Shown here: piece after piece, positions 18,043 through 38,425 of the stretch
How positions within the stretch are numbered: the stretch's first letter is position 1
Layout of the letters: each line of letters starts with the position of its first letter
Source of the DNA: Arbacia lixula
Lineage: Eukaryota; Echinodermata; Echinoidea; Arbacioida; Arbaciidae
DNA: 64,000 bases
Direction: 5' to 3'
NCBI GenBank assembly: GCA_963669155.1
Contig: OZ022597.1
Location: 5,053,965 to 5,117,964 of the forward strand
Program-made: the position numbers and the translations under genes
The notes under the pieces: model-generated
The model's input: only the letters and a program-made list of their open reading frames with translations
Told to the model about the DNA's origin: nothing
Databases searched by the model: none

Positions 18043-18210
18043 ATGAGTTTGATGCAACAGAGGAGTGAGCAGGAATCTCACTTGGATGAACAACTCTTCT
18101 TTAAACCGTCCAACATGGCTGCACAAAACCAGAACAGCCAAGACAGCTTTTTCATGAATATTGGAACTGAGGCACAGTCAACACCCTCCTCTGCATCATC
18201 GCTTTTTATG
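18043..18210 (+). CDS. SYCP1: SYCP1 exon 1 (residues 1-56)
   Basis: First coding exon, polar and Gln/Ser-rich with Phe-containing patches (FFKPSN, DSFFMN) that recall the Phe-rich N-terminus of vertebrate SYCP1. It ends in ATG|gtaaat, phase 0. The frame is open upstream to about 17986 and a possible acceptor (gcatag) lies just 5', so a more upstream start cannot be excluded. Confidence 0.75.
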
Positions 18211-21200
18211 GTAAATATGTTCAATGAAGTAACTCTATAATTCTACTGAAAAAAACATGAAAATTATCACAACTATAACAGTGGTATCAAAAAATCATTT
18301 GAAGGCAGCTATACTCTTTACACCAAAGTATTACTATACATGTGCTCTGTTCATGTGAGAACGTTCAATAAACTAGCTTCGTTACTTGTATCTATTCGCA
18401 ATATCAAATAGCTAAAAGGCAAATATTACAATGCATTATGTACATACATGACAAAAGAGAAAGTGAGTTCACATCTAAGGATGATAAGTGTGAACACAGT
18501 GGCCACTTTAATGATGTACTGTTTTTAGCAGGAGTGTTAACATAATATCCCTGATTGATCCATATATAAAATACATGAAGAGTAGATATATTTGTACTAG
18601 GATCACCACTGAAAGCTTTGTAGGGATAATTGCCATATCAAAGTCATGAATTGAGAATGATAACAAGAAGAAAACTACCCAAACCGTGAAGTGATTTCAT
18701 CTTTCCTCTAATAAACCACAGAGCAGTTCCATAACCGAGTCATGTGCTGTGCAAGATGGCACCTCACAGTTTGTGAGCAGTCCGTCGTTGAGGCTGAAGC
18801 AGTATCAAGTCTCCGACCCGTTCTTGCAGCAGTCCACTTCAGAGACAGTGATGGGTCAGAAAGGCTTGCTTGCACAGCATGAGGATGAGACACTGGAGAT
18901 CCAGGTAGGATGTCACCCGTTGCCACTTTGAATCAGACTGATTATCTTAGAACAGGACATGTATTTAATTGTGAGTCAACATAATGTTGCAAAAATACAT
19001 TTAAAAGCAATGATTATGCTAGTTTAAATGAAACCTTTCCCGTGCCTTATGACACAACGTAACTGTCAATTTGTTATCGTTGGTTTTGTCATCGCCATCA
19101 AGGCTATCAGTATCACTGTCTGGATTGTGGCTATAGAATCAGGACAAATTGAATACCCTGCACTCGTGTCTGCATCAAGAGGCTGATAAGATCTGTTGTT
19201 GGAAGGTCTATGTTGAGATGGAGGTGTCATCAACATATTTCCATTCTCCTTGGGCATCGTTTTATCAATGTATCTGTAATTATTATTGTTTTGATCTCTG
19301 TTTTTGTCATTGTGGTTACAGAATCAGGACAAGATGAACACCTTGCACTCTCGTCTGCACCAAGAGGCTGATAAGATCCGTCGCTGGAAGGTCCAGATTG
19401 AGATGGAGGTGCGGCAGAAGGAGAGGGGACTCAGTGACGCGCAGCAAACCATTGAATCCCAGCGCAAATCACTCCTGGAACTTCAGGTACATGTACATAC
19501 AACAAGAAAGAATCAATGAATTAATGACATTTTGACAAATCATCACTTAAATCAACATACTTTTTGTAGAATGACATTAATAAAAGCATAGGCTAGTTTG
19601 TGCTAGATTTGTTCTGGATTATGTATAAAGGTGTATACCAGATATTGTATCATCCCCTCACAGATACATTTAGAAATGTAGCAATGTCTTGCAGACATTA
19701 TGCAATTATGAAAATAAAACTTTTTTTTTGCACAGAAGTTAGAAATGCACCTTCACTGTATTTTGTCTCCATCTATGCCTTTGCCAAACAAGCATTCTTT
19801 TACTACTTTTTTTTTTAAAATTTGGATATTGAATAAAAGAATTACAGTGTGTACGTTAACTAACAGTTGTGACATTTGATCTGACACCAGCTTTTGCATC
19901 ACAAGGAAAATAACAATGGAATGAGTGTGATCATTTCACTTTACACATTGCCTTTGAATTCAAAGTTCACTTTTGTTTCACTGTTGGTAGTCTAGTACTG
20001 TGCTTCTGTGATTAAATGATTTTGATGACTGAATGCTTATTTTTCAGCTCCAGAATGAAAAGCTGAGTGTGCGGTTGCAGGAAGAGATAGAGAATAGAAT
20101 TGACATCTCACAGAAGTAAGTGAAAGCAACAGATAGTTGCAAAATTATATGTAAACTCTTATGAATTAGTTTTGCATGAGAAGAATGATTACTGCAGTTA
20201 GTCTGTTCCTCCAATGCCACCCTGACTAAACAGCAGCCTGAAAATTCTGATGAATATACAGTTATGCTTTTAGGTTCTTCATGTTGCTTCATTATTGTGT
20301 AGTTGCCATTCGATTGTTATCTACATATGATGATAACTTCATGTAAGTTGATGAGCTTGTTTAACATGCTCACACTGTTCACAAGTGTTTTTGTCTCATT
20401 TGAACAAAGTTCGGCGGAGACCTAGTAATCACTTTTCCTGTTAGTCTGTTACAAAAATGTTTTGGTAAAATTTGCTCTCATTTCTTTATTCATCGTGTTC
20501 ATACTTGGTGCAAATGAGCCTTGGGTAAAATTTTCACCTGTGTGTTGATGAGGATGATGAGGTCAAAGATCATTGAGGGGTCAAAAGGTCAAACGATATG
20601 AGGCCATTGTTTAATCAGGGAAGACTCATGGTTCATGAAATACCTTGTTTAATATGACAAATGTTTGATGCCTCTTTCAAAGTCAAGCAATTGCATCTGT
20701 GAAGCTATTGTATAAAGAATATATTCAATCTTTCTTGTAGCATCTAACGTAGAGTTCTACAAGACACATGCCACTGATGGAGTGTTGATTGTCCTTCATA
20801 TATATACATGCACTTCAAGATACTAAACACTAATATAAACAGATATCTGAAGAACTAAAGAGACATTAGACTTATTACAGTTAATCACATAAAATGGGAT
20901 TTTTCAAAATCATTGTGCTGCATGTATTTTAGAATTCATGGAATTGCTATCTGTATAAGATGTGAAATTAAATTTACAGATTAATGCAAAAGTGTGACTT
21001 ACATCATAGTGCTATGGAACATGGTGTATTTGCATTGCAATGATGAGTATTTAGTTTGTAAAAATATGTTTGTAAAATATATATGCCCACTGTTGAGTGT
21101 GAGACAATGTCATTGGTCAAGAGATAAGATCGTAATCACCTGGGGCCATATCCATGAAACCTTTCTTGCCTTACTAGGTGCTAAAATGCAATATATTGAA

Positions 21201-24200
21201 TGCACTTCAACAACTTACTGGGCTAAGTGGGGTTTCATAAATATGGCCCCAGCTAATTTGACTTCATCTCTCTCAATATTAACAAGGTCCAGTGGCAAGA
21301 AGAAGTATGATCAAATAAATCCAAACTTGTTGAATGTGAACATAAAGATCATTTCCAAACGTTAACTTCACTCATATAGGTACTTCATCCCTTTTGATTG
21401 AAAATGCTGCATGTAGTGCATATGTTGGGTTAAATCTGAACACACCATAAACACACAAAGTCTATTGAGCAGCTCTTTCTCCAGCTCAGTTTGAGTTAAT
21501 TTGTGTGATGTCCCCCGCAGGATTGTGTCTACTAGAGACATGTGTGCCCTGGTGAAGGACTATGCTAGTAAGCTGGAGGGGAAGCTGGTAGAGAATGAAC
21601 AAGTCAGAGAGGAACTCCAGGATGTGGGTCAGAAACAGCTGGAGGATATGAAGGTAAATGGACTGGACAAGGACCATGTATGTTGCATATAGGTTTGCAA
21701 TTATTGTAACTTACCATCCATGGTAACTGCCATGGCAACAGCCAATGAGCTCTCATTATTCCACCTATTGGCCTTGTAGTTACCATTGATGGTAAGTTAC
21801 AATAATTGAAAACCTCTATGCAACATGGCCAAGATGATTTATTCTTGACACCACATGTGGGAGAATGTTATCCCATAATGCACCATGCATATTTTATTTT
21901 TGGTATTCCGAAAAATATTTTAGAAGATTTTAACCAATATTAATGAGCACATGCCCTGCGCTCCTATCCCAGAGGCAGCCAGTAATAAACGTCCTTTCAT
22001 GTCTTTTGCATACATTAACACCATCAAGCTGATGGTGCGATGTCATGAAACTGAAAGGGACATTGCGCGTCAATGTCTATCAGCGCTCCTTATTGCATTT
22101 GATGCGCCCATGTGCAAACAGTTGAATGCGCGATTTATTTTTGCACGTAATGCTATGGGCCTAAGGCGCGTACGTCTGGAGATAAAATTGCTTGGGAGCA
22201 GTTTTATCTTTCATCCTAACTTTTTTTCCTAAGTGCGTTTCAGAATACCGATTGAGCTCATTTGCATAAAAATTTTATCTCGGAGGCTCATTTACGTAAA
22301 AATTTTATCTCTAGCTCATTTGAATAAAAAATTTATCTTTTATTGTAAGTTGGCTTTTCGGAATACCAAAAGATGAAATTTTTCCTAAGTCCCTGAGATA
22401 CAATAAAATTTTTCCTAAATTCATTTTCGGAATACCCCCCCCCCCCCCCAGATTAGACCGGAAGCAGACATAACTGCTAACAGATATGGAATGGGGCTAT
22501 TTCATGGGACGACTCTTTGTTCTTTGCAGTATGAAAAATTGGGAGTGTAAACATATTAATTCTAATAATCTGAGAATGATACTAAAGGATGATAAAACAA
22601 GAGGGGAATCTAGATGAGATCTAACTAGTCTGGCAGGAACTCAAGATGAAGGCCAGGAGAAGCATTCTGAAAGACACTTTTATGGATCAAAATCCTTGTA
22701 ATTTTTTTTCCCTCTCTGCAGAATCTGGAGTCACGGTTCAAAGATCTGAGCCTGGCACATTCCAACAAAGTGAATGAACTGAAGTCTGAATGTAAGTTAA
22801 ACATTTGTGTATAACAACTTTGTTATATCCCTCTCTAATTCATTAGTTTTCAAAATACATACAAATGCATAGCTGCTGAAAGTTTTCTTCTTTTTCTTTC
22901 TCCTTTTTTTTATAGGTGCTTGTTCAATTTTGTTTTGAAATTTTATTTTGTTTTGATAAAAAAAAAAACCCAATAATTGGGGGAAGCAGGATAATCTTTC
23001 ATCTGATAGCTAGGTCAAAAATGAAAACCCTAAAGGTTTCTTGTGAAAACACAAAAAATACATCCTGGTTCTTTTCTTTTCTTTATTGCAAGTGATACGA
23101 TGCTAAAACTGATTCTTAATCCTGCGTGACTATTCTCTTATTAACCCTCTTTGTTTTTCATGACAATTCTGTTTGTGCTTCCCTGTCTCTTGTTCTTGTT
23201 CTTCAATCTGTCTGTTTGACTATGTCTCTCTATCTTGTGATAAATGTATCCCCTATATCTGTCTGTCTGTCTGTTAGACTGTGATTTTGTGTGTGTGTAT
23301 GTGTGTGTGTGTCTCTCTCTCTCTCTCTCTCTGTCTCTCTATCTTGTTCTGCCTGTCTGTCTGACTGTGTCTCTCTTTTTGCCTCTTTACTACAGTGCAC
23401 AAGGAGAAGAAAACGTTTGAAGAAGTTGAGCAGAACATGCAAACCGGGCTCTCCGAAATGCAAAAAGAGGTGCGAATAAACTCTTGCCATCAATGTTTTA
23501 GGTAGCAGAAGGAAAATCTATGGGGCCTTTCATGACATGCATGAAAGGAACATTATTGCCTGTAGTATTGCAAAAATGAATGGACACTCTTGTACATAAT
23601 GTTAAGAGAGTGAAAAAGGACATACATGCACATATCATACTTCCTCCTTTGGGTAGCATAGAAGGGGAGAATTGGGCTTGGTGTACTAAAAGGCTTTTTG
23701 GCCGGCGTGATCTCAATGTTGTGTGATTGTTTTGCAGTGTGAGAGTCTGCAGAGCAGCTGTGAGAAGAAGGACCGTGACATCTCAGAGCTGCAAGAAGAC
23801 ATCAAGAAGACGGCTAAACAGCTGGCTATGCTCCAGCAGGAGAAAGGTAGTATTATCTGTTAATAATAATAATAATATTCAATTCTTAGAGACGCATAAT
23901 ACCATTCAAATAGTCTCTATGCGTGTGAAAATGAAAATTGATTATGTGATAATTTGAAAATAACTAATAATTATCAAACAGATACGTCTTTAGTCTTGAT
24001 TTGAATTGATCGAAGTCTGTCAATGATCTTATGCCTTGGGGGAGGTTATTCCATAATTTGGGTGCCGTATTTGCAAAAGCTCTATCACAGAATGTCTTAG
24101 ATTTTACACGAATTTCAGAGAGAAGATTTTTTTATTGAGAACGAAGATTACGAGTAGGCTGGTATGGTTTGATGAGTTCAGTGTCTGCGGTTGGCCTACT

Positions 24201-27200
24201 ATCCTCTCCGCATGGTTCACCTGAAGGCCCCGGATTAGGATTGATGTCGCCATCACAGAAAATTGAGGTTCGAAAACAAGCATTCGCATTAGGGTAGTAG
24301 TGAACAAAACCTCCACATAGCTTGCTTGTAGGCTTTGAAGGCTGGTAATGTGTCAAATTGACAGACACTGTACTAGTAAAAGTGTATAGTGACATTCCCT
24401 GTTGAGACCAAGAGTATGTACTTCTATTCAGCAGGCTCACGCCAAGAAGAAACACAAATGTTGAACACTTGAATAATTGTTAGAATGTATAGAGTCCATA
24501 GGTTGTTAAGATATGACTCATTTAACCCAACAAGTGGATGTCTTACAGAAGGGTCTACAGTAGTCCCTGAATAAGGCCAATAGGATGATGTCTTATATTG
24601 TTTTAAAACCCTTGCTTATCTCAGAGGGTCTTCAGGAGTCCCTGAATCAGGCCAATAGGGTGATGTCTTGTATTGTTTTAAACCCTTTGCTTATCTCAGA
24701 GGGTCTACAGGAGTCCCTGAATCAGGCCAATAGGGTGATGTCTTGTATTGTTTTAAACCCCTTGCTTATCTCAGAGGGTCTACAGGAGTCCCTGAATCAG
24801 GCCAATAGGGTGATGTCTTGTGTTTTTTTAAAACCCTTGCTTATCTCAGAGGGTCTACAGGAGTCCCTGAATCAGGCCAATAGGGTGATGTCTTGTATTG
24901 TTTTAAAACCCTTGCTTATCTCAGAGGGTCTACAGGAGTCCCTGAATCAGGCCAATAGGTTGATGTCTTGTATTGTTTTAAAACCCTTGCTTATCTCAGA
25001 GGGTCTACAGGAGTCCCTGAATCAGGCCAATAGGTTGATGTCTTGTATTGTTTTAAAACCCTTGCTTATCTCAGAGGGTCTACAGGAGTCCCTGAATCAG
25101 GCCAATAGGGTGATGTCTTGTGTTTTTTTAAAACCCTTGCTTATCTCAGAGGGTCTACAGGAGTCCCTGAATCAGGCCAATAGGGTGGTGTCTTGTGTTT
25201 TTTTAAAACCCTTGCTTATCTCAGAGGGTCTACAGGAGTCCCTGAATCAGGCCAATACGGTGATGTCTTGTATTGTTTTAAACCCCTTGCTTATCTCAGA
25301 GGGTCTACAGGAGTGCCTGAATCAGGCCAATAGGGTGATGTCTTGTATTGTTTTAAACCCCTTGCTTATCTCAGAGGGTCTTCAGGAGTCCCTGAATCAG
25401 GCCAATAGGGTGATGTCTTGTATTACTTTAAACCCCTTGCTTATCTCAGAGGGTCTTCAGGAGTCCCTGAATCAGGCCAATAGGGTGATGTCTTGTATTG
25501 TTTTAAACCCCTTGCTTATCTCAGAGGGTCTACAGGAGTCTCTGAATCAGGCCAATGAGGAGGTGGAGGCCAACAAGCAGCTCCTTGCCAAGATTAAAGG
25601 GGAGCTCAGGGAGGCAGACAAGATGAAGAGTCAACTCCAAACTACTCAGGTTTGATCACATCTTCATCAACAGATAATTAGCTCAAACTTAAACATAAAT
25701 AGAAATCATTCTCTATATAATTATTGTCATCCCATGAGTGGGTGCAATATGTAAGAATACAACCCCATGGTGTTACCAAAAGTTCTCTTCTCTAAAACGA
25801 TATTTCTTGAAAATCATTTTGTTGATCTTGATTTGTATACATGATGTGTCCTTGAGTATTTAAGCATGGAAGAAATTTCAGATACTACTATTATGCATAA
25901 ATAATTAGTCGTGGTTTGTTCTCTAAAACTGACCTGACATTATCAAGACATCAATCAATTCCATTTCTTGAAATACAAGCTTCTTATTAACTTAGAGACA
26001 AACATTGTTTTAAAAATCAGGGATGCCCTCTATATCCTCATAAAATTTAAAGAGAGTAATAAGCACTTCATCCTATCATGCATATCTGTTCACAATGGGT
26101 AATATGAAAGATATCAAAGTTTCATTTGCATTCATAAGGCTCAAAATCATTGGGAATGAACTTCTCTTAACTAAGGTCTTATAAAGAATATGAAGTTGTC
26201 ATTAGGAGTATGAAGACTAACTGTTCCTGCTGTCACTTGATGCCACAGGCTGAACTAGAGAAGAACATTGAAGCTTTGACGCAGGATGCTGAGCAGACTG
26301 GGAAGCAGATAGAGGACCACAAGAACACCATTGAGCAGTGCCAGGAGCATATCAAGACCAAAGAGGTAACAGGCCGCCCAGTAACTCCACTGCGGCAACT
26401 GTTGTTCCACCAGGTCATATGGTGAATGCAGCTTTACTTACAACAATCTCCTGGAATGCTTACAAAATATTGATTCAATTGATGAATTTCAGATTGCTTT
26501 TTAAAGACACGCTTCTTTAACGTCATTTATGCATTTTTGTTGAGACCCAGTACATCTCATATCTTGTCTTGTACTTCTTTCTCTACAGCGCATATGGACA
26601 TGTTCAATCAGTATATGTTATGCGCTATATAAGAATGGCTAATTATCATTATTATTATTATGGTAAGTTTGCTCTCAAACTATTCTTAATGATTCTGGAG
26701 GAATATCACTCGTTTCTTTCCTATTTTATAACTGCAATCACCATGCAGTCTGGAGACAAAGACTAAGTAACCTTCTTTTCAGAGGAGAGAGATAGAAGTT
26801 GAGAAGATGGCACACTACTTCCTGACCAAGTAAATTAAACCAAAGTGGACATTGCAGCTGTTTAGCTAGCCTAGGTTCAGGGCAGCAGTCAATATCTATT
26901 ATATTTGCAGGTAGCTAATTATTTCCAAGTTCTCATTATAGATGCTTTGCTGGTGATCTACATTCATAAGTTCACAGTCAGACTACCTAGATGACATGAT
27001 CCAAAATAGCAGTACCAAACATTCTGTAATATTTTCAGAGTTTGACCACCCCTATAGTAACAGTACACTAATTCCTATTTTGATGTATTACATTCTGTCC
27101 ACTTGAAGAAAACAATCACAGACCTGGAGCAGCGTGTGACTGAGCTTGAAGCAGAGAAGACACAGCTGGGAGACACAATTGAGGAACAGAACAAGACAAT

Positions 27201-30200
27201 CCAGAAAAAAGTGGTGAGTCATCATGTATCTCCTGAAACATACAAAAACACCCTTGTTAACATTTGTAGGTATTACAACGATGTAGAAGGTATAGGTTTG
27301 ACAGGGCTGGACACTAATGGGGCTCAGAATTTCTTTTAAGTAAAAAATTAAGAAATTGCTCTGCAGCCAATCATTTTCAGCGTTATAATCTTCCGGGTTG
27401 TATGAGCGCCTGTCCAGTTTCAATTTTGTTCCAGGTTAGAGGTAAAAAAGTATCAAAAATCAGACAAGAAAATATCTCTTTACACTGCAACTAGTACACA
27501 AATTTTATTTGCTTGTGCATAAAGTAAACACAACTATTACAAAAAATAAACCCAAATTCACAATTACAGAAAGTACTAAGATATTATAACCACTATCAGC
27601 CTGAAATTCCTATGGCCTATATTATAATATTATATGATAATATGAAGTCAAAATTTGTGAGAAATCTACAATGCTGCCACAGGCTGATGCAATACGTCAT
27701 ACAGCATGATGCATGAGCTAGCCTCTGCTTTGGAATATCAATTATAGCATAAAGAAGTTATTCTGGAGATAAAAAGGTGTTTTTTAGTGGTATTCACTGC
27801 GTATCAACATTCATAGCAAAAAATGTCTTCTCTGGAGGTAAACAATGAATATTGTTGGTTTGCAGGCTGACGTTGATTCCTTGAAGGGAGAGTTGAAAGA
27901 AGTCTTGGAGAGGGAGAAGACATCTTACGACAAACTAGACAGTATGAGGAAGGATCTGCAATCAGAAAGGTACAAAGAATTAACTACACAACATGACAAT
28001 ACTCAGTTGTGGCAAATTTCTTTTTGTTATAAGGTAATCAAGTTGGTAGTAGGCTGCCGTTCAGACTGATAGGCAGTTATAATCCAAACTATTCAATAAA
28101 AGGGTCTGGCTGCAGTGGATTAATCAGTCTTCAGGCAAATGATGAAGTGACTAGATTTATCAGTACTAGACTCTGTTTTTGAGTTGGATTATAAATGTCA
28201 AACAACTTGTAATCTAGGCTGAGTTAGCTGCACTGATGTAATATCCCATGTCCACAATTCTCCATAGAGCTTAAAGAGGAAAGTCATTCCATAATGCACT
28301 TCAATGGGACATCCATTTTTTTTGGAATCATGTCCACAGCCAGTCTCATACACTAGTACACTAGAATTGGACTGACTGCAAAAACAAAATATGAATATGG
28401 CTGTGCAGTGTATAATGGAATGGCTTTGCTATATGAAGAATTTGTAAATCCTGTTACAATGTTGCCCCTTCCAGCTCTGAGAACGCAAAGCTGGTTGAGG
28501 TGATTGGGTTGACTCGAAAGGAGAAGCACAATCTGGAAGGACAGCTTGGCAAAGCCAAGGATGAGGCAGAGAAGCTGGCTGACAAAGTACAGGTAAGGAT
28601 TGCTGTCATAATGCAAGGAGAGATGTGGCTATTATTATGTGATGGGGCATGCTTTTATAATGCCTAGAATCCTATGGATGTGCTCCTTGCTCTTATATTG
28701 TAATTATTGCCTTGTATGATACCACTTTATGGGAGCGAGAAGGAAAAAAATCAGATAAAGATGATTGAGTGAAGTTTCTCTGGTCCTCCCTGAAGCGCCT
28801 TGAGAGTGACATCCTGGTGGAGAAGACCAATCTGCAGACTGTCTTGGAGGTCAAGGAGCAGCTGGAGAAGGAGAAGGCAGATCTCCAGTCCCTCCATGAG
28901 AAGCACTCAGACGATGCTGGACAGCACTTAAAGAAGGAGAAGAAAAAGGTAGCCAGAATATCTTCAAAATGATTTGTGACTTGGCGCACAATGAAATATC
29001 ACCTATTATGATATAGTTATAATCTCAAAGTTGGGAGCACTTACATATTTACCCAATAGCTTCTCAAACTAATGTCAATATCTAAAAGATCAATATCACA
29101 TAGTTTTGAGGGTCAATGTAAGATATGTTATTAATGTATTATATAAGCTATTTTGATTCATTAAGCACCATTGATGCATTTCCCATACATGATACACACT
29201 GATCCTGTGCAGCATCAATATGTCTGTCACTCAATGGGTTAAATCAACACTTCGATCCTCCCTCCCTGCAGTGTTAATGCTCTTCCTGTCTTGTCCTGCA
29301 GACGGCTGACTTCAAGAAGGAGCTAGATGCAGCCAAGGCCAGCCGCAAGGGACTGGAGAAGGAGATTGATCAGCTCCGAAAGCAGAAGGAGGAGGCGGAG
29401 AAGAAGCAGGAGCTGGCCACGGCTGCTCAGGAAGAACAGGCAAAGAAGTTTGAGCAGGTCATGAACACCTACATGGTATGTCAATGACACTAGGAAATCT
29501 CTTAAGGCCACAGCACACAGCATGATTTAGCCATGATTCAGAAGACGTATGTGTGACATCACCTTCTTATACAGATCCCATGACCTGGTCTGGTGATTCA
29601 GCTAGTTGCAGAGTAGTACGATTGATTGGATTGTGTCTTCTGCAGCAGTTTTTAGTGCGACATTTGCAATATAAAAGCGCATGATCTACTAAACTATAAG
29701 TGTATTAAAAGTTAGTGTCGAGTTGAACATGCTGTGGTGCATGCTGGTCACAAAGGCTTGTTCAAAAATGTTCCATTCCTGTGTCTTATTTCCCTCCCTA
29801 GACCGACTATGACAAGATTGTTATGGAAAAAACAAATGCTGTTGATGATCTGAAGAGGAAGCTGCTGGAGCAAGTTGCATCTACGAAAGAACAAGTATGA
29901 ATTTTCTACGAGAAGCTTGCAATGCTGATTAACCGGTTGACTACTTAGTCATCTCATTCTCATAGGGGCCCATTGGATCACATAAGCTATTGGCTGAGAT
30001 ACATTTGAAGATGGAATGCACTTGGAATTTACTTCAGACTATCCCATCTCAAGTAGATGTGAACATATTAAGAAGCAATACTTGATACTTGATGTGATAA
30101 TTCCCCTTGCAGCTCCAAAAAGCTAAACTAGAATGAACTAAGCAATATGTGGTGAAAATTAGTGTCATAGTGAAGCTCTCTATCTCACAATAAAAGGAGA

Positions 30201-33200
30201 GTGCATTGTGCAAGTATAATCTTGGATATATCTTAAAGAACAAGAAATTCAGTCTTAGGGGGCAATACCTTCGTAATCCTGGACTACTTATATGGCATAG
30301 AGTTCTCTGTTGCAATGTAGTGCAGTTGAGGATCATTATGTGATAGCAGTACTGTGCCTTCACTGACAGAATGATTGACAAGGGATATCAAAATCTATTT
30401 TAGGATCACAAACATGTTTTGTTTGTTCATGTGGGATTTGTTTGCTGTAAGGGAGGTAAATCTCTGACTGATGTTCCCTGTATTCCAGGAGGGAAGAAGG
30501 ATTGCTATGGAAGAGGAAGTGGCAGCGATGAAGCAAAAGGTCACAGAGACAGAGACTGCCAGGAGTGCCCTAGAGAGAGACACCTCCAAGACGTCAGAGG
30601 AACTGGCATCGATGAAGGAACAGCTCAAAGAAAAGGTCTGCATACATTATGTTGTGTAGTGGTGTCTCCTTAGAGATCAACTGTATAACGTCAGGACTCA
30701 GAGACAAAGAGTGTAGTAATCAAAAATACATTTATTCGTTGCTGCATTCTTACAACTTTTGGATCATTTCTCAATGATAGCTCTCTGAATCTTAATGCTC
30801 TCTCAAAGCTGAAGGATATCATTTATTTATTTATTTATTTATTTATTTTCTATTTTTCTACTGGGCCATGTTGAATAAATATTGTAACTTACCAATAATG
30901 GTTACTATCATGGTAATAGCTAATGAGCTCACATGATTGCACATGTTGCCATGGTAGTTACCATTGATGGTAAGTTACATTAATTGAAACCTATATGCAA
31001 CATCGCCCAGGTTCTCTTTAAATAACACAACTAAAGAATTGAAGTGAAATTCCCAAAGTGTGTTTCAGTTTCTTGGATTTAGCCTTGTGCCTGATACCAC
31101 AAAACTGGATGCTTGGTTGTCACAGTTCCAGTATGGCTCCTTAGGTTATCATAAACTTCAGGCAGTGCCCTTCTGGAAAATGGGATTGGAGTGGATAGTA
31201 AGACTTAAAGGAGTTGTCTAAAAATAATAGGATTATTGAAATTAAACAAAATCCAGACTCGGTGATGATGGCATTATCATTTCTACCCCTTGTATGTTTA
31301 TATGCGTATGTTTATATATCAAGTGCAAAATGCTATGTTGCTCATATATGTCATTGATCATTCATTTTCCTTGTGAGAAAATGAAATGCATCAATTTTTT
31401 GGTGAAGCTATGAAAGAGACACAAGTTCTTCTGTTGTACATCATATTTTGCCTTTTAAGGAAATGTAATACATCAATATTTAATTGAAGCCATTACGATG
31501 CCAAATTCATTACCATATTCTAATGATACATTCTTCTTTTCAATACTGATGTCTAGTCAACATGTGTTACAGGCCTGTAAAAGAGTTAAAAGTGTCCTTG
31601 TGTCTTTACAGGTAGAAGAAATCACAAGACTACATGAGGAAGCGAGGAAGGCTGAGGAGGAAAAAGCAAGAGTAGAGGAAGAGAGAGCAAAGGCAGAGGA
31701 GGAGAAGGCTAAGGCAGTGAAGGCAGCCTTGAGTGCAAACAAGAAACTGCCTGTGCCCAGTCCAAGGTCTAAGACCAGTTCTGTGCCCTCTAGGGTGGGC
31801 CCAATGACTCCTGTAACCCCAAGTGCCCGGAACAACCTGTCACAGGACGTCAGTGCCAAGGCCTTGAGAACTCCCCTGGCTGGTGAGTTAATACTGAAAG
31901 AGTCACTGTGAGAACTTAATATTCATTGATTTATTCCGTCCTCTTTTACCAGGGTACCCCTCTCAGTGAGCAAAGCACTGTTCTCCTGGGGGGGGGGGGG
32001 GTTCCTGGGTACATTGAACAACAAACATAACTTAGAAAATCATGACAATCGATCACTGAATCATTCAAACAGCACAACTATTACAAACTGAGCCCTGTCT
32101 TATAAAGATTTGTGCTTCATCACATCTTGACAAGTGATTGATATTCAGATCAATTGCAAACCTTTATAAGACAGGTGCCTTGGATGGTATTCTTAAGATT
32201 GTTGTATTTTTCTGAGGTAATAGAGTGCTGACATTGATACAAGTCGGTATTCTGGAAATTGTTGTATTTCTCTAAGGATGGTCTCTCATTTAGCTTTGAA
32301 ACAGCCCCTTTGTTGTGTCACAGCTAATCAAAATTGATTTATTTTTTGTTGGTCCATCAACAATTAAAAAAACTTTGTAGCACAGGCATGCATGTATGCT
32401 TCACAATTTTCAGAATGCCAGCTTTGTTGTAAGTGCAAAGTTACAACGATTTCCAGAGCACTGTCCCTGACCCTATTCCCCCCTCCCCTCATTCCAATGC
32501 AGGGAAGGCTGTGATGTCACGCACCACCTTATCAAATACTGAATTTATGTAGGTCTGCAAACCAATCAAAACTACTTGTAAGGCTTTGAAGCGCATATAT
32601 GTATGTCTGCTAATTAGGCGTACACTTAAAGGAGAAAAAAATACTACAAAAGATTTCCAAAATTTTCAGAATACCAATTTTGTTGTAAATGCGAACTTAC
32701 AACAACGTACAAAATACCATCCCTGGCCTTTATTCTGCTCCTCCTCCTCCCCTCTTCCATTGCAGTGAAGGCTGTGACGCCACGCACCACCCCACAGCGG
32801 AGCATCCTGAAACAGGCGGGCCTGTCTGGGCTTAAGCGCAGAGTAGCCTTTGCCTCGGACGATCGGATGGAGGAAGAGGCAGAAGACGACTGTGGGGGAG
32901 ACTCTGACTCATCTACGTCACAACTCATGGAGTTTGAGGTGCACATCTATTCTCTTCATTTCACTTTCTTCCTGCCACCTGTGATGCTTTATCTTTTTAC
33001 AATGCTTTTATTGCTGTATTTTCATTGATCTTGAAGTGGTCATGTTGTTTTACTTCTATAAAACATACAAATATTAAAAAAGTAAATTTAAACAAAGAAA
33101 AAGAGCCCCCCAAAGGGAAGATTTTATCTTTTGCATTTGTATGCGTCCCCGCAAAATGAGTGCGGGCATTATGTTTGTGGGTTGCTGTTTGTCTGTCCTT

Positions 33201-36200
33201 CTGGAATAGTGATGTTTTCTTTTCTCAAGAAATGTTTGACTGAACTTAATTAAACTTGGACCCTAATAATTAATAAGCGAGGGATTTGATTGATTGTTTG
33301 TGGGGTCAAGTGGTCAAATCCCTCACCAACTAATTAAATAATTATATAGACAATCAAATAACATAATGATTAACTACATAAATAATGCAACATCATTTTG
33401 ATGCGCCCTTAGGAATAACATTTGGATGATGCAAGAAATGAGGCATTGATGTTTGCTCTTTGTGTCAAATTTTACTCTTGTAGTTTGATGAAATTGATGA
33501 GCGTCTGAAGCTAGGCAGTAGTGGTGATCGACGGATTCCCAGCCACGCTGTGACCCCAATGCGTGTCCACCCCTCACCTCAGGTTGGCCAGCAGGCCCTC
33601 CCTGGTGCCAAGAAGAAACCTGTGGGAGCTGTGCAGAGGAGTCAAAGCTCCACTAAAACAAAGGTAGGGGACTGGGATGATACTATACCACTGATATTTA
33701 GATGTACTTTACTAGTACCACAACAACTAAAAAAATGTATTTTCTCAGAATTCTATGAGTATATGCTACTGCCACTATCCTATACCACCATTGCTACTAC
33801 TGCCAACTGTACAATTACTACTACTACTACTACTCCTACTACTACTACTACTACTACTACTACTTTTACTACTACTACTACTACTACTATACTGCTACTA
33901 CTTTTATTGCAACCACGGCTACTAGTACTACTAAATCACAAAAAAGAATGTCTACCATACTATTTTAGATGATGAATATTGATACCAAATGTAGTATGAT
34001 GAATAGCAATAAGAATATGACATAGTGCCGATTGAGAATTAAGGGCCATAATTTCTGATAAAATCCCATGAACTGTTACACTTAGTCACACCAATAAAAG
34101 AAAATTGAACATTCTCTTCTTCCACCGTACAGACTAACAGTGTATTGCAATAGTGCGCTGTGCTTAGGGCTACAGTACACAGCCAATGTCAATATGCCAC
34201 GGTAGGTTTCAATTTTAATCTTATCGGGAGAATTCATCTGAACCCTTCAAACTCACATAATGAATCCGATTAGCCTGATGCAGTGCTGTTGACAGCATCC
34301 TGGCTAGAAATAAAGGTATAGCTGTCTGATGCCTGGGTGTGACTTTTGAATCTCATTTTCTCCAATCCAATAATTGCAAGTATTCCTCCATCTGCTTCTT
34401 CCTGTCCCATCATCCATCAGGGAAATATCTTTCTTTTAATATTATGCCTCCGCCACGAAGGGTTGTCTGTCCGCCCGTCCATTCGTACGTACGTACGTCC
34501 CCACTCCGTTTAGGCAATATCTTGAAAACTGTTAACTAGATTTGCTTCAAACTTGGTACATGTGTGTATTGCATAAAACCTGTAAAGTGTGTAAAATTAA
34601 GGTCAAATCTGATTGAGGTCAAAGGTCAATGAACTTTGTGAAAAATTGCCCCAATTTGATCTTTTTCACATTAAATCCAAATCAAAGGATATAATTCTCA
34701 TTAAACATGGTACAAAGATGGATCACTACTTGGGGGTAGACTGGTGACATTTTTTGGTAAAATTCCTGAATGGATAGAGGTCAAAGGTCAATGAACCTTG
34801 CAAAAATATATATTTTTCACCATAAGCCCAAACCCCAATCCAATGGTGCAATTCTAACCAAACATGGTACAGAGATGTATCACTTCATGGAGGTAGACTG
34901 GTGAAAAGTTGGGTAAAATTCCTGAAAGTTCAGAGGTCAAAGCTCAATGAACTTTGCCATGAATTAGCTTAAAATTGCCCCCAAAGTTATATTTTTCAAA
35001 ATAAATCTAGTCCAATGGTACAATGCCAACCAAACACGGTGCATAGATGGATCACTACTTAGGGGTAGACTGATGACATTTTTGGTGAAATTTCTCAAAG
35101 GTCGAGGTCAAAGATAAAAGAACTTTGCCAAAATTTGCTATTTTTCATATTGAATCAAAATATAATGATTCAATTCAAACCAAACATGGTACAGAGATAG
35201 ACTGGTAAGAGTTTGGGTAAAATACCTGAAAGTTCAAATGTCAAAGGTTTATGAATTTGCCAAAACTAGCTAAAAATTGCCCCCAATTTTTCGCAATAAA
35301 TCCCAATCCAATTATGCATTCCAACCAAACATGGTACAGCGATGAATCACTTCATGGAGATAGTCTGATGGCCTATTTGATAAATATAAAAAAGGATATT
35401 TTGATACTGGATTATATGGAATGTCTTGATCATAAGGTGTTATTAATGAATCATCACAAATCAACAGCACCCCTTTTATCAGCATGTGTGATTTCAGACA
35501 CTGGCATTAATTTCTTATTTTACAGACAGATTATGAGGAATGTTTACAAGTAATATGGAGGATAAACATGTACTTTTTCTCTTTGTTTCAAGCATCTTTT
35601 TTGTTGAGTGCTTGGAGTATGTGGTGAAATTTGACATCTGAAAACAGGCCATCAAAGGTAGATGTCTCACCATGTTTCACTTTTAATATACAAAAAAAAA
35701 AAAAAGATTTACATGTCTTGATGTTGCTTTCATGTAGATGCCTGATGATGGTTTGGTTAAAGAGAGACAGCAATACCAGGATTTGTACCCTGAAGTGGAG
35801 GACCAGAGCATGACTAAGAAACAAAAGGTAAGAACATATAAATCAAACATTAACTTTATTTCAATACAATATTGTCTTTATTCTTTTTTTTTTATAGAAA
35901 ATCCACAACACAAGAAAGGTGATTATGGATTTAAATATTTTGAAACGAAAACAAATGACATGAACTCCTTGTGCCTTGTGCCAATTCTTCGCAAGTAACA
36001 CATATCATACCCATAGAACATAAATTTTATTTAAACATAGTCTTTTCTCTCTCCCTGTCAGCAGGCAAACCAGTCCACAAAGAACGCAAGGAAGACCCCA
36101 AAGCGAGCGTACAAGATCAAGGGCTGGGGGGACTCCCCTCGCGGCAGGAAGAAGAAGAAGGACACTCCCGTTGCCAAGGATACTAAGGAAAACAACCTGG

Positions 36201-36241
36201 AATGGTTTGACAATGATGCCGTTTATGGCTTCTTTGATTGA
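18043..36241 (+). CDS. SYCP1: Synaptonemal complex protein 1 (transverse filament), 22 exons, complete
   Basis: Structural protein of the synaptonemal complex. In the known family, the C-terminal end binds chromosome axes and the N-terminal ends meet head to head in the central element. Exons: 18043-18210, 18722-18904, 19322-19486, 20048-20115, 21521-21653, 22722-22791, 23396-23469, 23738-23846, 25525-25649, 26249-26365, 27109-27213, 27866-27969, 28475-28592, 28796-28948, 29302-29475, 29802-29894, 30489-30635, 31612-31882, 32766-32938, 33484-33663, 35738-35827, 36062-36241. All are GT-AG with matching phases and total 3,000 nt (999 aa plus stop; human is 976 aa). Identification: residues 118-172 carry LHQEADKIRRWKV and RQKE, matching human KEAEKIKKWKV and RQKE; exon 16 has YDKIVMEK, matching human YDKIIEER; exon 19 has KRRVAFASD and SDSS, matching human KKRKMAFEFD and SDSS. 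The coiled coil runs about residues 130-735, followed by a Pro/Ser/Thr-rich basic tail. Start ATG 18043 has A at -3, but the frame stays open upstream of it, so an extra 5' exon is possible. Confidence 0.93.
18722..18904 (+). CDS. SYCP1: SYCP1 exon 2 (residues 57-117)
   Basis: Acceptor accacag, donor CAG|gtagga, phase 0 on both sides, 61 codons with no stop. It encodes the non-coiled head region rich in Ser, Thr and Gln, and ends in an acidic run (HEDETLEIQ) just before the coiled coil. Confidence 0.85.
19095..19232 (+). pseudogene. Decayed duplicate of SYCP1 exon 3 and its acceptor
   Basis: The segment from 19137 reads NQDKLNTLHSCLHQEADKI, nearly the same as the true exon 3, and is preceded by attgtggctatag (true copy: attgtggttacag). 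Similarity stops after GAGATGGAGGTG, so only the first ~96 exonic bases were copied. There is no donor at the break, so it is probably unused. Confidence 0.85.
19322..19486 (+). CDS. SYCP1: SYCP1 exon 3 (residues 118-172), conserved start of coiled coil
   Basis: The best-conserved exon. KMNTLHSRLHQEADKIRRWK and the following RQKE and ESQRKSLLELQ align without gaps to the human N-terminal coiled-coil segment that drives head-to-head assembly. Acceptor ttacag, donor CAG|gtacat, phase 0/0. A decayed duplicate of its 5' part lies 185 bp upstream. Confidence 0.93.
20048..20115 (+). CDS. SYCP1: SYCP1 exon 4 (residues 173-194)
   Basis: Short exon LQNEKLSVRLQEEIENR..., matching human FGNEKVSLKLEEGIQEN. 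Acceptor tttttcag, strong donor gtaagtg, ends in phase 2. Confidence 0.9.
20390..20640. repeat. Single copy of a 'ggtcaaaggtca' dispersed repeat, SYCP1 intron 4
   Basis: Contains gatgaggtcaaagatcattg and ggggtcaaaaggtcaaac, the wording of the tandem units at 34600-35360. It probably belongs to the same family. Confidence 0.4.
21141..21253. mobile_element. Short MITE with tggggccatat..atggcccca ends, SYCP1 intron 4
   Basis: Inverted ends tggggccatatccatgaaac and gtttcataaatatggcccca enclose about 110 bp. A relative lies at 44364-44477 with one decayed end. Confidence 0.7.
21521..21653 (+). CDS. SYCP1: SYCP1 exon 5 (residues 195-239)
   Basis: Acceptor cccccgcag, donor AAG|gtaaat. RDMCALVKDYASKLEGK corresponds to the human RHLCNLLKETCARSAEK segment, including the Cys. 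The exon takes phase 2 in and leaves phase 0. Confidence 0.9.
21697..21826. mobile_element. ATGGTAAC fold-back MITE in SYCP1 intron 5
   Basis: Inverted arms ggttt..aattattgtaacttaccat(c)catggtaac and gttaccattgatggtaagttacaataatt..aaacc, ending near atgcaacatggcc. Same family as 30879-31008, 13570-13670, 14398-14517, 45198-45364 and 51273-51703. Confidence 0.8.
21897..22449. mobile_element. Fold-back element with short tandem repeats, SYCP1 intron 5
   Basis: Edges carry ggtattccgaaaa on the left and tttcggaatacc on the right. Internally, agctcatttgcataaaaattttatct recurs about three times at 22253-22345, and a C14 run follows at 22434. The 93-codon ORF inside resembles nothing and is not called. 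Confidence 0.45.
22722..22791 (+). CDS. SYCP1: SYCP1 exon 6 (residues 240-262)
   Basis: Coiled-coil exon NLESRFKDLSLAHSNKVNEL with acceptor ctctgcag and strong donor gtaagtt, ending in phase 1. Hydrophobic a/d spacing continues from exon 5. Confidence 0.88.
23281..23390. repeat. GT/CT simple repeat before SYCP1 exon 7
   Basis: (GT)n followed by (CT)n and GTCT units. It directly supplies the pyrimidine tract of the exon 7 acceptor. Confidence 0.85.
23396..23469 (+). CDS. SYCP1: SYCP1 exon 7 (residues 263-287)
   Basis: Acceptor tttactacag directly downstream of a GT/CT-rich simple repeat that serves as its pyrimidine tract. It encodes HKEKKTFEEVEQNMQTGL and ends GAG|gtgcga, phase 0. Confidence 0.87.
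23738..23846 (+). CDS. SYCP1: SYCP1 exon 8 (residues 288-323)
   Basis: Acceptor tttgcag. It encodes CESLQSSCEKKDRDISELQE and ends AAAG|gtagta in phase 1. This phase fits exon 9 and every repeat-borne acceptor of the downstream minisatellite. Confidence 0.88.
23860..24131. mobile_element. Dispersed retroposon-like repeat with (AAT)n edge
   Basis: It starts with an (AAT)n run, followed by a segment of the type gacgcataatac...ctctatgcg and the stretch gtctttagtcttgatttgaa. A similar (AAT)n edge next to aagcttataaagcgca occurs at 283-330. It looks like the 3' end of a LINE or SINE; the family cannot be named by eye. Confidence 0.4.
24132..24455 (-). mobile_element. Fragment of a non-LTR retrotransposon N-terminus with 2A-like motif
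   Basis: The minus-strand frame contains GDINPNPGP at 24225-24251, like the 2A or 2A-like leader found at the start of many marine invertebrate non-LTR retrotransposon ORFs. The frame lies in SYCP1 intron 8, antisense to the gene. No endonuclease or reverse transcriptase domain follows, so it is a 5' fragment. Confidence 0.5.
24536..25562 (+). repeat. 75-bp minisatellite spanning intron 8/exon 9 boundary of SYCP1 (13 copies plus a degenerate one)
   Basis: Thirteen near-identical 75-bp units from 24588, each holding an intronic part, the invariant acceptor cttatctcag, and the first ~34 bases of exon 9. A degenerate copy (24536-24587) precedes them and contains stops. Because 75 is a multiple of 3, the array reads open from 24564 to 25655. 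Variants (L/V, K/N, IV/VF, C for S) recur in neighbouring units, as expected from unequal exchange. Confidence 0.95.
25525..25649 (+). CDS. SYCP1: SYCP1 exon 9 (residues 324-365), proximal acceptor
   Basis: It uses the last of 13 repeated acceptors (cttatctcag). It encodes EGLQESLNQANEEVEANKQL and continues as coiled coil to CAG|gtttga, phase 0. The first 30 or so bases are the exonic part of the 75-bp repeat. Upstream acceptors would add multiples of 25 residues in frame. Confidence 0.85.
26249..26365 (+). CDS. SYCP1: SYCP1 exon 10 (residues 366-404)
   Basis: Acceptor tgccacag, donor GAG|gtaaca, phase 0/0, 39 codons of charged coiled coil (AELEKNIEALTQDAEQTGKQ). Confidence 0.9.
27109..27213 (+). 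CDS. SYCP1: SYCP1 exon 11 (residues 405-439)
   Basis: Coiled-coil exon KTITDLEQRVTELEAEKTQL... ending GTG|gtgagt. The acceptor is read as cacttgaag, because that keeps phase 0. A cacag six codons in would need phase 1 and does not fit exon 10. Confidence 0.85.
27866..27969 (+). CDS. SYCP1: SYCP1 exon 12 (residues 440-473)
   Basis: Acceptor ggtttgcag, donor AAAG|gtacaa, ending in phase 2. It encodes ADVDSLKGELKEVLEREKTS, a heptad-rich segment. Confidence 0.9.
28475..28592 (+). CDS. SYCP1: SYCP1 exon 13 (residues 474-513)
   Basis: Acceptor ccccttccag, strong donor CAG|gtaagg. The phase-2 junction with exon 12 makes AGC (Ser). It encodes ENAKLVEVIGLTRKEKHNLE, coiled coil. Confidence 0.9.
28796..28948 (+). 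CDS. SYCP1: SYCP1 exon 14 (residues 514-564)
   Basis: Acceptor tcctccctgaag, donor AAG|gtagcc, phase 0/0, 51 codons (RLESDILVEKTNLQTVLEVK...). Lys/Glu-rich coiled coil. Confidence 0.88.
29302..29475 (+). CDS. SYCP1: SYCP1 exon 15 (residues 565-622)
   Basis: Acceptor gtcctgcag, donor ATG|gtatgt, phase 0/0, 58 codons. It ends FEQVMNTYM and leads into exon 16's YDKIV, the counterpart of human MVALMEKHKHQYDKI. Confidence 0.92.
29802..29894 (+). CDS. SYCP1: SYCP1 exon 16 (residues 623-653)
   Basis: Acceptor tccctccctag, donor CAA|gtatga. TDYDKIVMEKTNAVDDLKRK aligns to human QYDKIIEERDSELGLYKSK, one of the most conserved family blocks. Confidence 0.92.
30489..30635 (+). CDS. SYCP1: SYCP1 exon 17 (residues 654-702)
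   Basis: Acceptor ctgtattccag, donor AAG|gtctgc, 49 codons, phase 0/0. It encodes EGRRIAMEEEVAAMKQKVTE, continuing the coil. Confidence 0.9.
30819..30852. repeat. (TTTA)n microsatellite
   Basis: Eight or so atttatttattt units in SYCP1 intron 17. Confidence 0.9.
30879..31008. mobile_element. ATGGTAAC fold-back MITE in SYCP1 intron 17
   Basis: Arms tattgtaacttaccaataatgg and ttaccattgatggtaagtta with terminal atgcaacatcgccc. Close to the 21697 copy in both sequence and spacing. Confidence 0.8.
31612..31882 (+). CDS. SYCP1: SYCP1 exon 18 (residues 703-792), end of coil and start of tail
   Basis: Acceptor tctttacag, strong donor gtgagtt, ending in phase 1. The first half is a Glu/Lys/Ala helix (RKAEEEKARVEEERAKAEEE). 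After residue ~735 it switches to a Pro/Ser/Thr-rich basic tail with several SP/TP sites (PSPRSK, MTPVTPS, RTPLA), possible CDK targets by analogy with the mammalian C-terminal region. Confidence 0.9.
32405..32540 (+). pseudogene. Decayed duplicate of SYCP1 exon 19 5' boundary
   Basis: The region around 32410-32540 repeats 32665-32798: ttttcagaat, a CT-rich tract, attccaatgcag, then GGAAGGCTGTGATGTCACGC against the true exon's TGAAGGCTGTGACGCCACGC. It keeps an AG acceptor but loses similarity after about 30 exonic bases. Confidence 0.8.
32766..32938 (+). CDS. SYCP1: SYCP1 exon 19 (residues 793-850)
   Basis: Acceptor cttccattgcag, donor GAG|gtgcac. It holds VTPRTTPQRSILKQAG, then LKRRVAFASD and an acidic SDSSTSQLMEFE stretch, matching the vertebrate KRKMAFEFD...SDSSETTDLL block of the C-terminal domain. 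A decayed duplicate of its 5' boundary lies 263 bp upstream. Confidence 0.92.
33484..33663 (+). CDS. SYCP1: SYCP1 exon 20 (residues 851-910)
   Basis: Acceptor actcttgtag, donor AAG|gtaggg, 60 codons, phase 0/0. Low-complexity basic tail with TP/SP sites (VTPMRVHPSPQ). Confidence 0.88.
33800..33925. repeat. (CTA)n trinucleotide microsatellite, SYCP1 intron 20
   Basis: About 30 mostly perfect ctactact units with a few ttttact interruptions. It produces an artefactual poly-Thr frame. Confidence 0.95.
34430..35375. repeat. Degenerate tandem repeat (~150 bp unit, about 5-6 copies) in SYCP1 intron 20
   Basis: A head segment (atgcctccgccacgaagg, cgtacgtacgtacgtcc) is followed by units marked by aaacatggtacagagatg at about 34705, 34860, 35033, 35181 and 35327, each followed by a gaggtcaaaggtcaatgaac-type segment. 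Spacing varies from about 146 to 172 bp. No long ORF; likely a transposon-derived satellite. Confidence 0.85.
35738..35827 (+). CDS. SYCP1: SYCP1 exon 21 (residues 911-940)
   Basis: Acceptor tttcatgtag, donor AAG|gtaaga, 30 codons, phase 0/0 (MPDDGLVKERQQYQDLYPEV). It is separated from exon 20 by a 2.1 kb intron full of repeats. Confidence 0.85.
36062..36241 (+). CDS. SYCP1: SYCP1 exon 22 (residues 941-999, stop TGA)
   Basis: Last exon: a very basic stretch (TPKRAYKIKGWGDSPRGRKK) suited to DNA contact, then the aromatic C-terminus ENNLEWFDNDAVYGFFD. The acceptor is a tandem NAGNAG (tcagcag), so transcripts may differ by one Gln at residue 941. Confidence 0.88.
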   Translation, partial: QANQSTKNARKTPKRAYKIKGWGDSPRGRKKKKDTPVAKDTKENNLEWFDNDAVYGFFD

Positions 36242-38425
36242 GATTGTGGGTTGGGCTACTAAGCACTGATGTCAGGTGTTAGAACCAAGCACTCAAAGCT
36301 AGGTGTAAATACCTCATGTAAAACTTAGTCATAGTTTTTGTTGCTGAGTGTGCTGTCAGTAGCTCCCATGAAGTCAAAAGATGAAGTCTTGGAGTATATA
36401 GAGGTTTCTCCAGACATATTTGATATAAACTTGACAATGATAGTTTAGAATGTTGCAACCTGATGTAGATAATCTATTCCTTAACCTCTTTTTCCCTCAC
36501 TGATAGATAGATTTGCCTATTAACACCAGTGGCTTCATTTCATGTACAAATATACGCGTATATTCACTTTCATATATTTTACGTATGGTCTATTGTGTGT
36601 GCTGATTGCAATTCAGAAATTTTCATTTTTAAAGTGTTTTCTGGTGTATTGCTTCAATATGTTTCACTTTTCCAGATCTAGCCAATTTCTCTTAACACAC
36701 TTACATTACTGAAATATTGTGGTACTTTTGTTTCTCACATAAGGGGAATATTCTATGTAGCTGAGTGAGTGTGGCATCACTATATTATATTATCGTGATT
36801 TATTTTCCATAAGCATTAGGGACATTAGTGCATATACTTGCATATTTGCTGAGGCTGTCATTGTGCAGATTTTGACATGTTGTGGTCTGTTGGCAAACAG
36901 TACAAGTAGCAGAACCATTTTTTTTACTCTGCCGTGGCCAACCTCAGTGAGTGAGTGAATGACTGTATTTGCTATAGGTTTACAACAGTTAACTTAATTG
37001 TTATCTTGTGTCAACACAAGATTGAAAATTAATATTTAAACGTATGGATTTTTTATCATCATGCATTTTTCTTTGTTACACATCCATTCAACTTATAGGT
37101 AAAATACAAGCTCTATAACATAAGCAAAATAAAGAACAATATGAAATTTAAAAAAAAAGTTTAAAAATGCTTACAAGAAAAGAACAATTTGAACTAGCGT
37201 GTTTTTGTGACTGTAACAGATTTGTTTGTGTGCAACATTAGCAATCGTCACCTGAGATATGTTCACAATATTGTAATGATTAATAGATATTGTAATAATG
37301 AGTACATTATGGAAGGAATTGCAACACTTCATGTACATTATGGTATACTGGTTGAGGAATAATACCAAAATGTACATAAATAAATCTAACCCCGGTAAGA
37401 AATATTTGATGTACTTTCACATCATATGTTGATATATATTGCTAATTTGTACATTTTCCATGTTTGTGAATATAAGTGCTGACAGTTTTAAAAGCCCTGT
37501 ATTTTGCTTTGAAGTTTAGATGAGTTACTAATTGCTTGGAACAAGCATAAATACTTTTTATCATTGATTGATTTGATGAATATGGAATCTGATTTGCTGC
37601 ACATATCTAGAGTTAAGATAAATTTATAGTTATTTTCTTGCCAAATGATTTATGAAATCTATATATTTATATAGTAATATATTCCTAAATGTATTAATGT
37701 TCATCATTCTACATGTGTCCTTGAGATATTCTGATAGTTGACCAATGGGATGATTAAAGTTTAACAAAGCAAAACGTTCAAACGATTGTACTGTCATATT
37801 TAATGTTTGTATGTAAAAGTAAATAAAAGGCTGAAATCATGACGAAGGGAGGCATAGTGAGAGAAAGATGGAAAAAAAAGGAGAGAGAAAAGGAGAGAGA
37901 AAGGATGGAAAGGAAAGAAGTAGAGATTTTTTTAAAAATGAATTTGGAGATATTTAACAGGAGCGAGCACTATGTTGAATTATTACCTGTAAATATTCAA
38001 ACAATAAAACAAGTAAGACCTAATCAGAGAATATGCAACATTTAGTGCTATACTGGCAGTTTTTGTCATTCAGAATCGTAAAAAGTTTGAAATCCTTAAA
38101 AGAAAACTGAATCCTCAATAGTTTGAAGTCAGCTCATGAATATTTCCATTGCTTTTAAATATGTTACGATTGTTATCAAATATTTCATGCTATCACTAAT
38201 CACTAAATGCTGTGATGACCATGATAATGATGATAACAGCTGCAGCAATAAAAAAAAAAAAAAGAATATGCAAGCGAGGCAAAGACGTTCTGTAGACTTG
38301 TTAACCCTCTTTTGAAGAAAACAAAAATTATGATGACCAATATTAACCGGACCTTCCAACATTTTCTTACATACGGGTCAAAACGACTGTAATCAAGTCT
38401 ACAGTCCCAGCTGCTAGCTGTAAAC
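36242..38425 (+). other. SYCP1 3' UTR and SYCP1-SULT intergenic gap
   Basis: AT-rich with no ORF worth calling. AATAAA hexamers at 37128-37133, 37379-37384 and 37822-37827 are candidate poly(A) signals for SYCP1. The last ~150 bases before 38426 would be the sulfotransferase 5' UTR and promoter. No TATA box stands out. Confidence 0.45.

Follow-up and report, generated by a model that had tools for sequence, protein, structure and literature searches.

A 75-bp minisatellite with thirteen identical acceptors at SYCP1 exon 9 in the sea urchin Arbacia lixula

The start of exon 9 of SYCP1, which encodes synaptonemal complex protein 1 of the meiotic chromosome-pairing machinery, is occupied in Arbacia lixula by a tandem array of 75-bp units in which thirteen identical 3' splice sites follow one another, and splicing to any of them would keep the reading frame. 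We studied it in a window of 64 000 nucleotides (the whole stretch of DNA analysed here). The array is most likely a young minisatellite that arose when a segment spanning the junction of intron 8 and exon 9 was duplicated in tandem. Our preferred reading, to which we give a probability of about 0.7, is that it is young and neutral, that its last acceptor dominates, and that inserts in the protein are rare.

Results

The SYCP1 gene

The gene was modelled by joining exons by the GT-AG rule and by phase; the phases are consistent and leave one open frame.

18043 to 36242, + strand: SYCP1 gene, 22 coding exons, 998 aa with the last exon 9 acceptor (the short form)
23738 to 23846, + strand: SYCP1 exon 8, ending on one base (G) of a split codon
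25525 to 25649, + strand: SYCP1 exon 9 (125 nt) when begun at the last acceptor; this form agrees with the five aligned relatives

The identification as SYCP1, proposed in the first-pass annotation, is supported by a protein family, a structure and homologues. The product hits Pfam SCP-1 with an E-value of 1.7e-19 and 69.9 bits, where the gathering cut-off is 23; the match spans the first ~286 residues after the SYCP1 N-terminal part, and the query used for it lacked one Leu at the exon 6/7 junction. Residues 123-226 match PDB chain 6f62_A, an SYCP1 coil that we take to be human, at E 1.5e-17. A protein search with the 998-aa product returned seven matches, five of them from echinoderms: the sea urchins Diadema setosum (47% identity to the model), Strongylocentrotus purpuratus (48%) and Lytechinus variegatus (49%), the sea star Asterias amurensis (33%) and the crinoid Anneissia japonica (31%). 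The Diadema protein covers 100% of the query, including the C-terminal end; the S. purpuratus and L. variegatus protein models stop short of the C-terminal part. The coding exons range in size from 68 to 271 nt, and in this 22-exon model the boundary that carries the array is the start of exon 9, as had been proposed.

Anatomy of the array

24550 to 24624, + strand: outermost degenerate unit, 70/75 identical to the consensus, with an in-frame TAG and no acceptor AG before it
24625 to 25524, + strand: 12 full 75-bp units, each made of 32 nt of exon 9 start and 43 nt of intron end
24615 to 25524, + strand: 13 identical acceptors cttatctcag, ending at 24624 + 75n (n = 0 to 12), the last at 25524

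TRF finds the array at 24550-25556 (period 75, 13.4 copies, 96% match, 0% indels), with the head-to-tail arrangement of a minisatellite. The first-pass annotation was right to place it at exon 9, but had its start at 24536 instead of 24550 and the 3' end of exon 9 at 25655 instead of 25649 (CAG/GTTTGA). The unit consensus has one mismatch to the 32 nt of the real exon 9 start, and the intron-derived part of the unit holds a polypyrimidine stretch and a CAG acceptor. Every intact unit includes an acceptor for exon 9. A search of both strands of the window for the word cttatctcag gave 13 occurrences, all on the + strand, inside the array and at 75-nt spacing. The word count and TRF together bear out the earlier statement that thirteen identical acceptors stand at 75-nt steps.

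Scored with an acceptor matrix, each of the 13 array acceptors reaches 8.2, within the 1.6 to 12.1 spanned by the 21 acceptors of the gene. Branch-point candidates are weak in the three units inspected, the best being CCCTGAA at -55 in all three; because the same weak candidates recur across these units, branch-point position singles out no acceptor.

We also searched the species' own assembly (607 Mb, 590 contigs). A 301-base query matched the array alone, in five pieces, among the best-scoring candidates. The acceptor word, allowed up to two mismatches, was found in the 13 array copies and in two further places, which read CGG and not CAG. A second locus, a haplotype copy and an insert-bearing processed copy were each considered; these searches of the assembly returned only the array and the two two-mismatch places.

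Variation among units and origin of the array

The units are alike, as had been remarked from the sequence at first, with a mean pairwise divergence of 3.03 per 75 (4.0%). Adjacent units are closer still (2.27 differences vs 3.03 in random order, P = 0.022), and it is this greater likeness of neighbours that slippage or unequal exchange would give. The same pattern bears on whether the array could be an assembly artefact, with a true copy number different from that seen or with the array absent altogether. The finding of a single copy of the locus in the assembly speaks for such an artefact. Against it, a stutter would create neither the 10 variable columns of the 12 full units, with their greater likeness between neighbours, nor the degenerate copy at the edge. 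The ten contigs that we sampled are, moreover, 26-56 Mb long. We consider an artefact highly improbable.

Relative to the consensus, the 12 units hold 11 changes, nine of them nonsynonymous, two synonymous and none a stop. The expected synonymous fraction is 0.247 (P = 1), and 11 random changes would include no stop with P = 0.61; no coding selection on the inserts was detected with these 11 variants, which give the test low power. The unit variants look neutral. Variable columns make up 2 of the 32 exon-derived and 8 of the 43 intron-derived positions (pi 0.018 vs 0.057); this lower variation in the exon-derived part was considered as a signal, but by columns it gives P = 0.17 and we do not rely on it.

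For a view of the genome around this case, 200 kb (3,277 bases of it N) were drawn from ten contigs, with two fixed positions per contig. This sample holds 20 arrays with a period of at least 30, four of them with at least five copies and none with ten. Minisatellites are common in this genome; the SYCP1 array is longer than those sampled, and its kind is not unusual.

Copies of acceptors at other exons

Two further SYCP1 exons have an upstream copy of their acceptor region, both of which we judge to be older than the exon 9 array.

19124 to 19226, + strand: acceptor region of exon 3 (19309-19411) repeated 185 bp upstream, at 85% identity
32402 to 32528, + strand: acceptor region of exon 19 (32658-32791) repeated 256-263 bp upstream

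The exon 3 copy retains its AG and includes 90 nt of the exon; 185 bp is no multiple of three, so read-through from this copy would shift the frame. The exon 19 copy is 70-89% identical, also retains its AG and includes ~26 nt of the exon. No donor end was found copied in this way when all 22 exons were compared with the window by BLAST (E <= 0.001). Three of six local duplications cover an acceptor, where ~12% would be expected for each (P = 0.026 vs random placement). These six were picked by eye from 18 families, excluding simple repeats (D2, D4, D6) and four short families (D12, D15, D16, D18); when the four short families are added, 3 of 10 duplications cover an acceptor (P = 0.107). Since the duplications were chosen after the fact, the acceptor enrichment is at most a hint.

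Reading frame and possible length forms

The split codon has its first base in exon 8 and takes its other two from whichever array acceptor is used; the phases of the model agree with the proposal that exon 8 fits them all. When each acceptor was translated in turn, the 13 choices gave 0, 25, ... 300 extra residues, with the frame open to the normal stop. The frame is retained by 12/12 upstream acceptors, each adding between 25 and 300 aa, and the frame neutrality claimed at first pass holds for simple acceptor choice. The claim that only the degenerate outermost copy is closed holds too: it has no AG before it, and an exon 9 begun there, at 24550, would bring a stop after 327 residues. A transcript lacking exon 9 would encode 324 residues before a stop.

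Frame neutrality of the array is not far beyond chance. When segments of 60-99 nt, in lengths divisible by 3, were duplicated in silico at the 21 acceptors of the gene, exon 9 included, the frame stayed open in 34% of cases on average (range 0 to 100%). Multiplied by the one-in-three chance of divisibility, this makes an open, three-divisible unit a coincidence of ~0.1, or roughly 1 in 10.

The sizes of the resulting exons differ greatly among the acceptors. The last three would give an exon 9 of 125, 200 or 275 nt, in or near the 68-271 nt span of the coding exons; the first intact acceptor would give 1025 nt, against 271 nt for the largest SYCP1 coding exon. All acceptors are equal in the scored stretch, so that the choice among them must come from position, and exon size may be what sets it. 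Dominance of the last acceptor is argued from exon size and from analogy with the human ABCA7 array; strength gives no basis for it, the scores being identical. By that analogy we would expect the last acceptor to dominate, with perhaps a few per cent of product carrying 25 additional residues. An effect of the array on exon 9 skipping is also possible on the same analogy.

Donor-like sites inside the units

24657 to 25490, + strand: donor-like sites (AGG/GTGATG or a variant of it) that follow the acceptor by 35 nt in 10 of the 12 units

These GTs are absent from the first-pass annotation. At unit position 36 the site reads AGG/GTGATG in eight units, ACG/GTGATG in one and AGG/GTGGTG in one; the two other full units read AGGTTGATG at the donor-like position and have no GT site. 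With a donor matrix, nine of the unit sites score 5.5-5.7. This exceeds the scores of the actual exon 8 and exon 9 donors (4.1 and 3.6, the latter the lowest among the gene's 21) and of 6/21 of the gene's donors. If used, they would produce 35-nt microexons, and one to four of these followed by the last acceptor would lead to a stop after 341 residues, so that any use costs protein. Frame neutrality holds only while the unit donors stay silent.

The duplication crosses an intron/exon boundary and brings donor-like as well as acceptor sites with it, as is characteristic of one route of intron gain. A reading as serial intron gain would take each unit as a proto-exon of 35 nt plus a proto-intron of 40 nt, with some unit donors used; the outcome would be microexons, frame shifts and less SYCP1 with more copies. 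It can point to the ten units with a donor-like GT, nine of which outscore the donors of exons 8 and 9, and to the intron of a potato RdRp gene, which arose through the same kind of duplication (PMC4974935). Set against this, 35-nt exons and 40-nt introns are very small, and the premature stop just described would follow from one to four microexons. A score of this size is also no sign of use: the internal exon 9 site GAG/GTGGAG at 25563 is equally strong (5.6) and lies inside a stretch kept by the sea urchin proteins, and 203 of the 3521 GTs in the window reach at least 5.5 with the donor matrix. We regard serial intron gain as very unlikely.

Relatives and predicted structure of the inserts

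SYCP1 was aligned in six rows with the five echinoderm proteins (three sea urchins, sea star, crinoid); an unnamed protein and a fish SYCP1, also among the seven matches, were left out. The exon 8/9 junction falls at alignment column 475, within a gap-free run at 268-512 that is the longest of the alignment (245 columns; the next longest has 76). None of the 5 aligned echinoderm relatives has an insert at the junction; these are other species, and they are uninformative on splicing in A. lixula. A protein database search with the repeat's open frame, which reached proteins of ~200-635 aa, gave 17 candidates and none at E <= 10.

We modelled two inserts plus exon 9, in the window's own frame and as a single sequence, with AlphaFold (mean pLDDT 73, indicative only). 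Exon 9 is predicted to be helical, with pLDDT 88-95 over residues 61-90. The helix is interrupted in the first insert around Pro 21, and residues 45-47, near Pro 46 of the second insert, are the only ones under pLDDT 50. The second insert is nonetheless predicted to form a continuous helix together with exon 9, although confidence there is low (pLDDT 53-65). Inserts may well disturb the coiled coil; the model does not firmly show a break.

These results bear on the reading proposed at first pass, in which many acceptors are used and the gene yields a ladder of proteins carrying 0-12 of the 25-aa inserts, which would break or rephase the coiled coil and alter the geometry of the synaptonemal complex. 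It draws on the 13 identical acceptors of ordinary strength, on the 12 open units, and on the interruption near Pro 21 and low confidence near Pro 46 predicted by AlphaFold. On the other side, the five aligned relatives are free of inserts and the junction lies in a gap-free stretch of 245 columns; exons of up to 1025 nt would be required; no coding selection is seen; and the second insert is predicted as one helix with exon 9. In Caenorhabditis, selection is reported to act against indels within coiled coils of synaptonemal complex proteins (PMC8598163), which also tells against a ladder; in mammals the coiled coils of these proteins are conserved, with a weaker anti-indel signature (PMC8598163). 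We consider such a ladder rather unlikely. A version in which the array evolves fast, several copies are used and copy number differs between individuals, yielding different mixtures of SYCP1 lengths and so a natural length series for the transverse filament, seems to us quite unlikely.

The suggestion at first pass that splicing to the upstream copies occurs or matters is not supported here: the relatives are insert-free, no coding selection is detected (at low power), a 1025-nt exon would be needed, and the units contain donor-like sites. The inserted form was found neither conserved, among five relatives of the seven matches, nor under coding selection in that low-power test. A functional claim for the upstream acceptors is not favoured.

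Other features of the window

Just upstream of the array, still in intron 8, an open frame at 24132-24479 (- strand) contains the motif GDINPNPGP, which we take to be one of non-LTR retrotransposons; a Pfam search with this frame gave no match. Intron 20 holds a diverged repeat of ~155-170 bp in four to five copies (34611-35400). Arrays of similar period, 163-165 bp, occur at loci L025 and L031 of the same genome. A second minisatellite, of 96 bp in 3.6 copies with 97% match (TRF), lies at 51296-51638.

Between 38393 and 54118 on the + strand are open frames resembling sulfotransferase exons. One of them, at 49462-50136 (+ strand), hits Pfam Sulfotransfer_1 (PF00685) at E 2e-8; Pfam searches with 38393-38608, 39155-39367 and 53915-54115 gave no match, and neither did one with a different frame at 49853-50221. 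A 375-aa open frame at 61478-62605 (- strand) hits Pfam ALS2CR8 (PF15299) at E 5e-19, and a protein search with the ORF at 61481-62605 (- strand) found none of 2938 candidates at E <= 0.001. Rfam gave 0 matches to the whole window at gathering scores.

Discussion

We propose that a 75-bp block made of 43 nt from the end of intron 8 and 32 nt from the start of exon 9 was tandemly duplicated, and that the block would then have been multiplied through slippage or unequal exchange until thirteen equivalent 3' splice sites stood in a row. The spliceosome would mostly join exon 8 to the last acceptor, since that acceptor and the donor of exon 9 enclose an exon of 125 nt; the remaining array would leave with intron 8, and the ancestral-type 998-aa protein would be made. 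The penultimate acceptor, and perhaps also the preceding one, probably sees low-level use, which would add 25 aa or, for the latter, 50 aa. Forms longer than these, and microexons of 35 nt, would be rare or unstable. The array would persist because a duplicated acceptor leaves a working one behind, and not because inserts are useful.

Several observations are in keeping with this neutral account: the 998-aa frame is intact over 22 exons, the relatives are insert-free, and the variants among units look neutral. Others sit less easily with it. All acceptors score alike, the frame is open through 12 units, and the selection test had low power. The exon-derived part of the unit is the less variable (P = 0.17), and a comparable array in human ABCA7 is not silent.

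The array is of interest under either outcome. If upstream copies are used, it offers a natural experiment on spliceosomal choice where many acceptors are identical, and a test of how much length change a transverse filament tolerates. With a rise of 0.15 nm per residue in an alpha-helix, 25 residues would add ~3.75 nm if straight. If the last acceptor predominates, which we think more likely, the array still tests cleanly, in a natural setting, whether exon size decides which acceptor is chosen, and it may be an intermediate of intron evolution in a meiosis gene. Automatic models could put exon 9 at the wrong copy, so annotators should know of the array.

The known systems that we compared resemble this one in part. 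Human ABCA7 has, in intron 18, a VNTR of 25-bp units each of which begins with a splice donor, the smallest array having twelve units (PMC5954066). Retention of one unit was found in 2 +/- 1% of transcripts and shifts the frame, and the following exon is skipped far more often when the array is long (PMC5954066). It is like the SYCP1 array in being an intronic array beside an exon with a splice signal in each unit; it differs in having 25-bp units, a donor and a frame shift where SYCP1 has 75-bp units, an acceptor and a frame that is kept, and its usage was measured in transcripts.

In the potato RdRp gene, a tandem duplication across an intron/exon boundary led to gain of an intron by way of a cryptic exonic donor (PMC4974935). 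There too a polypyrimidine tract, an acceptor and the first bases of the exon were copied, and an exonic donor precedes the copied intron end. The potato gene has two copies, with its intron proven by RNA reads; the thirteen acceptors of SYCP1 are known from genomic sequence.

Two other systems are more distant. The VNTR6-1 minisatellite in intron 6 of TERT (38-bp units) is also intronic and alters the splicing of its gene, but it lies ~3.5 kb from exon 7 and acts via a G-quadruplex, and the portion of that account drawn on here describes no splice site in the unit (PMC11830802). NAGNAG acceptors (PMC3250501) likewise offer neighbouring acceptors that preserve the frame, in steps of 3 nt against the 75-nt steps of SYCP1, where each step brings a full acceptor. 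Among the titles and abstract openings covered by our literature search, no such array was described for SYCP1 or for any echinoderm. The closest kinds to the thirteen-fold, frame-keeping acceptor in SYCP1 are the ABCA7-like array and the potato RdRp-like duplication.
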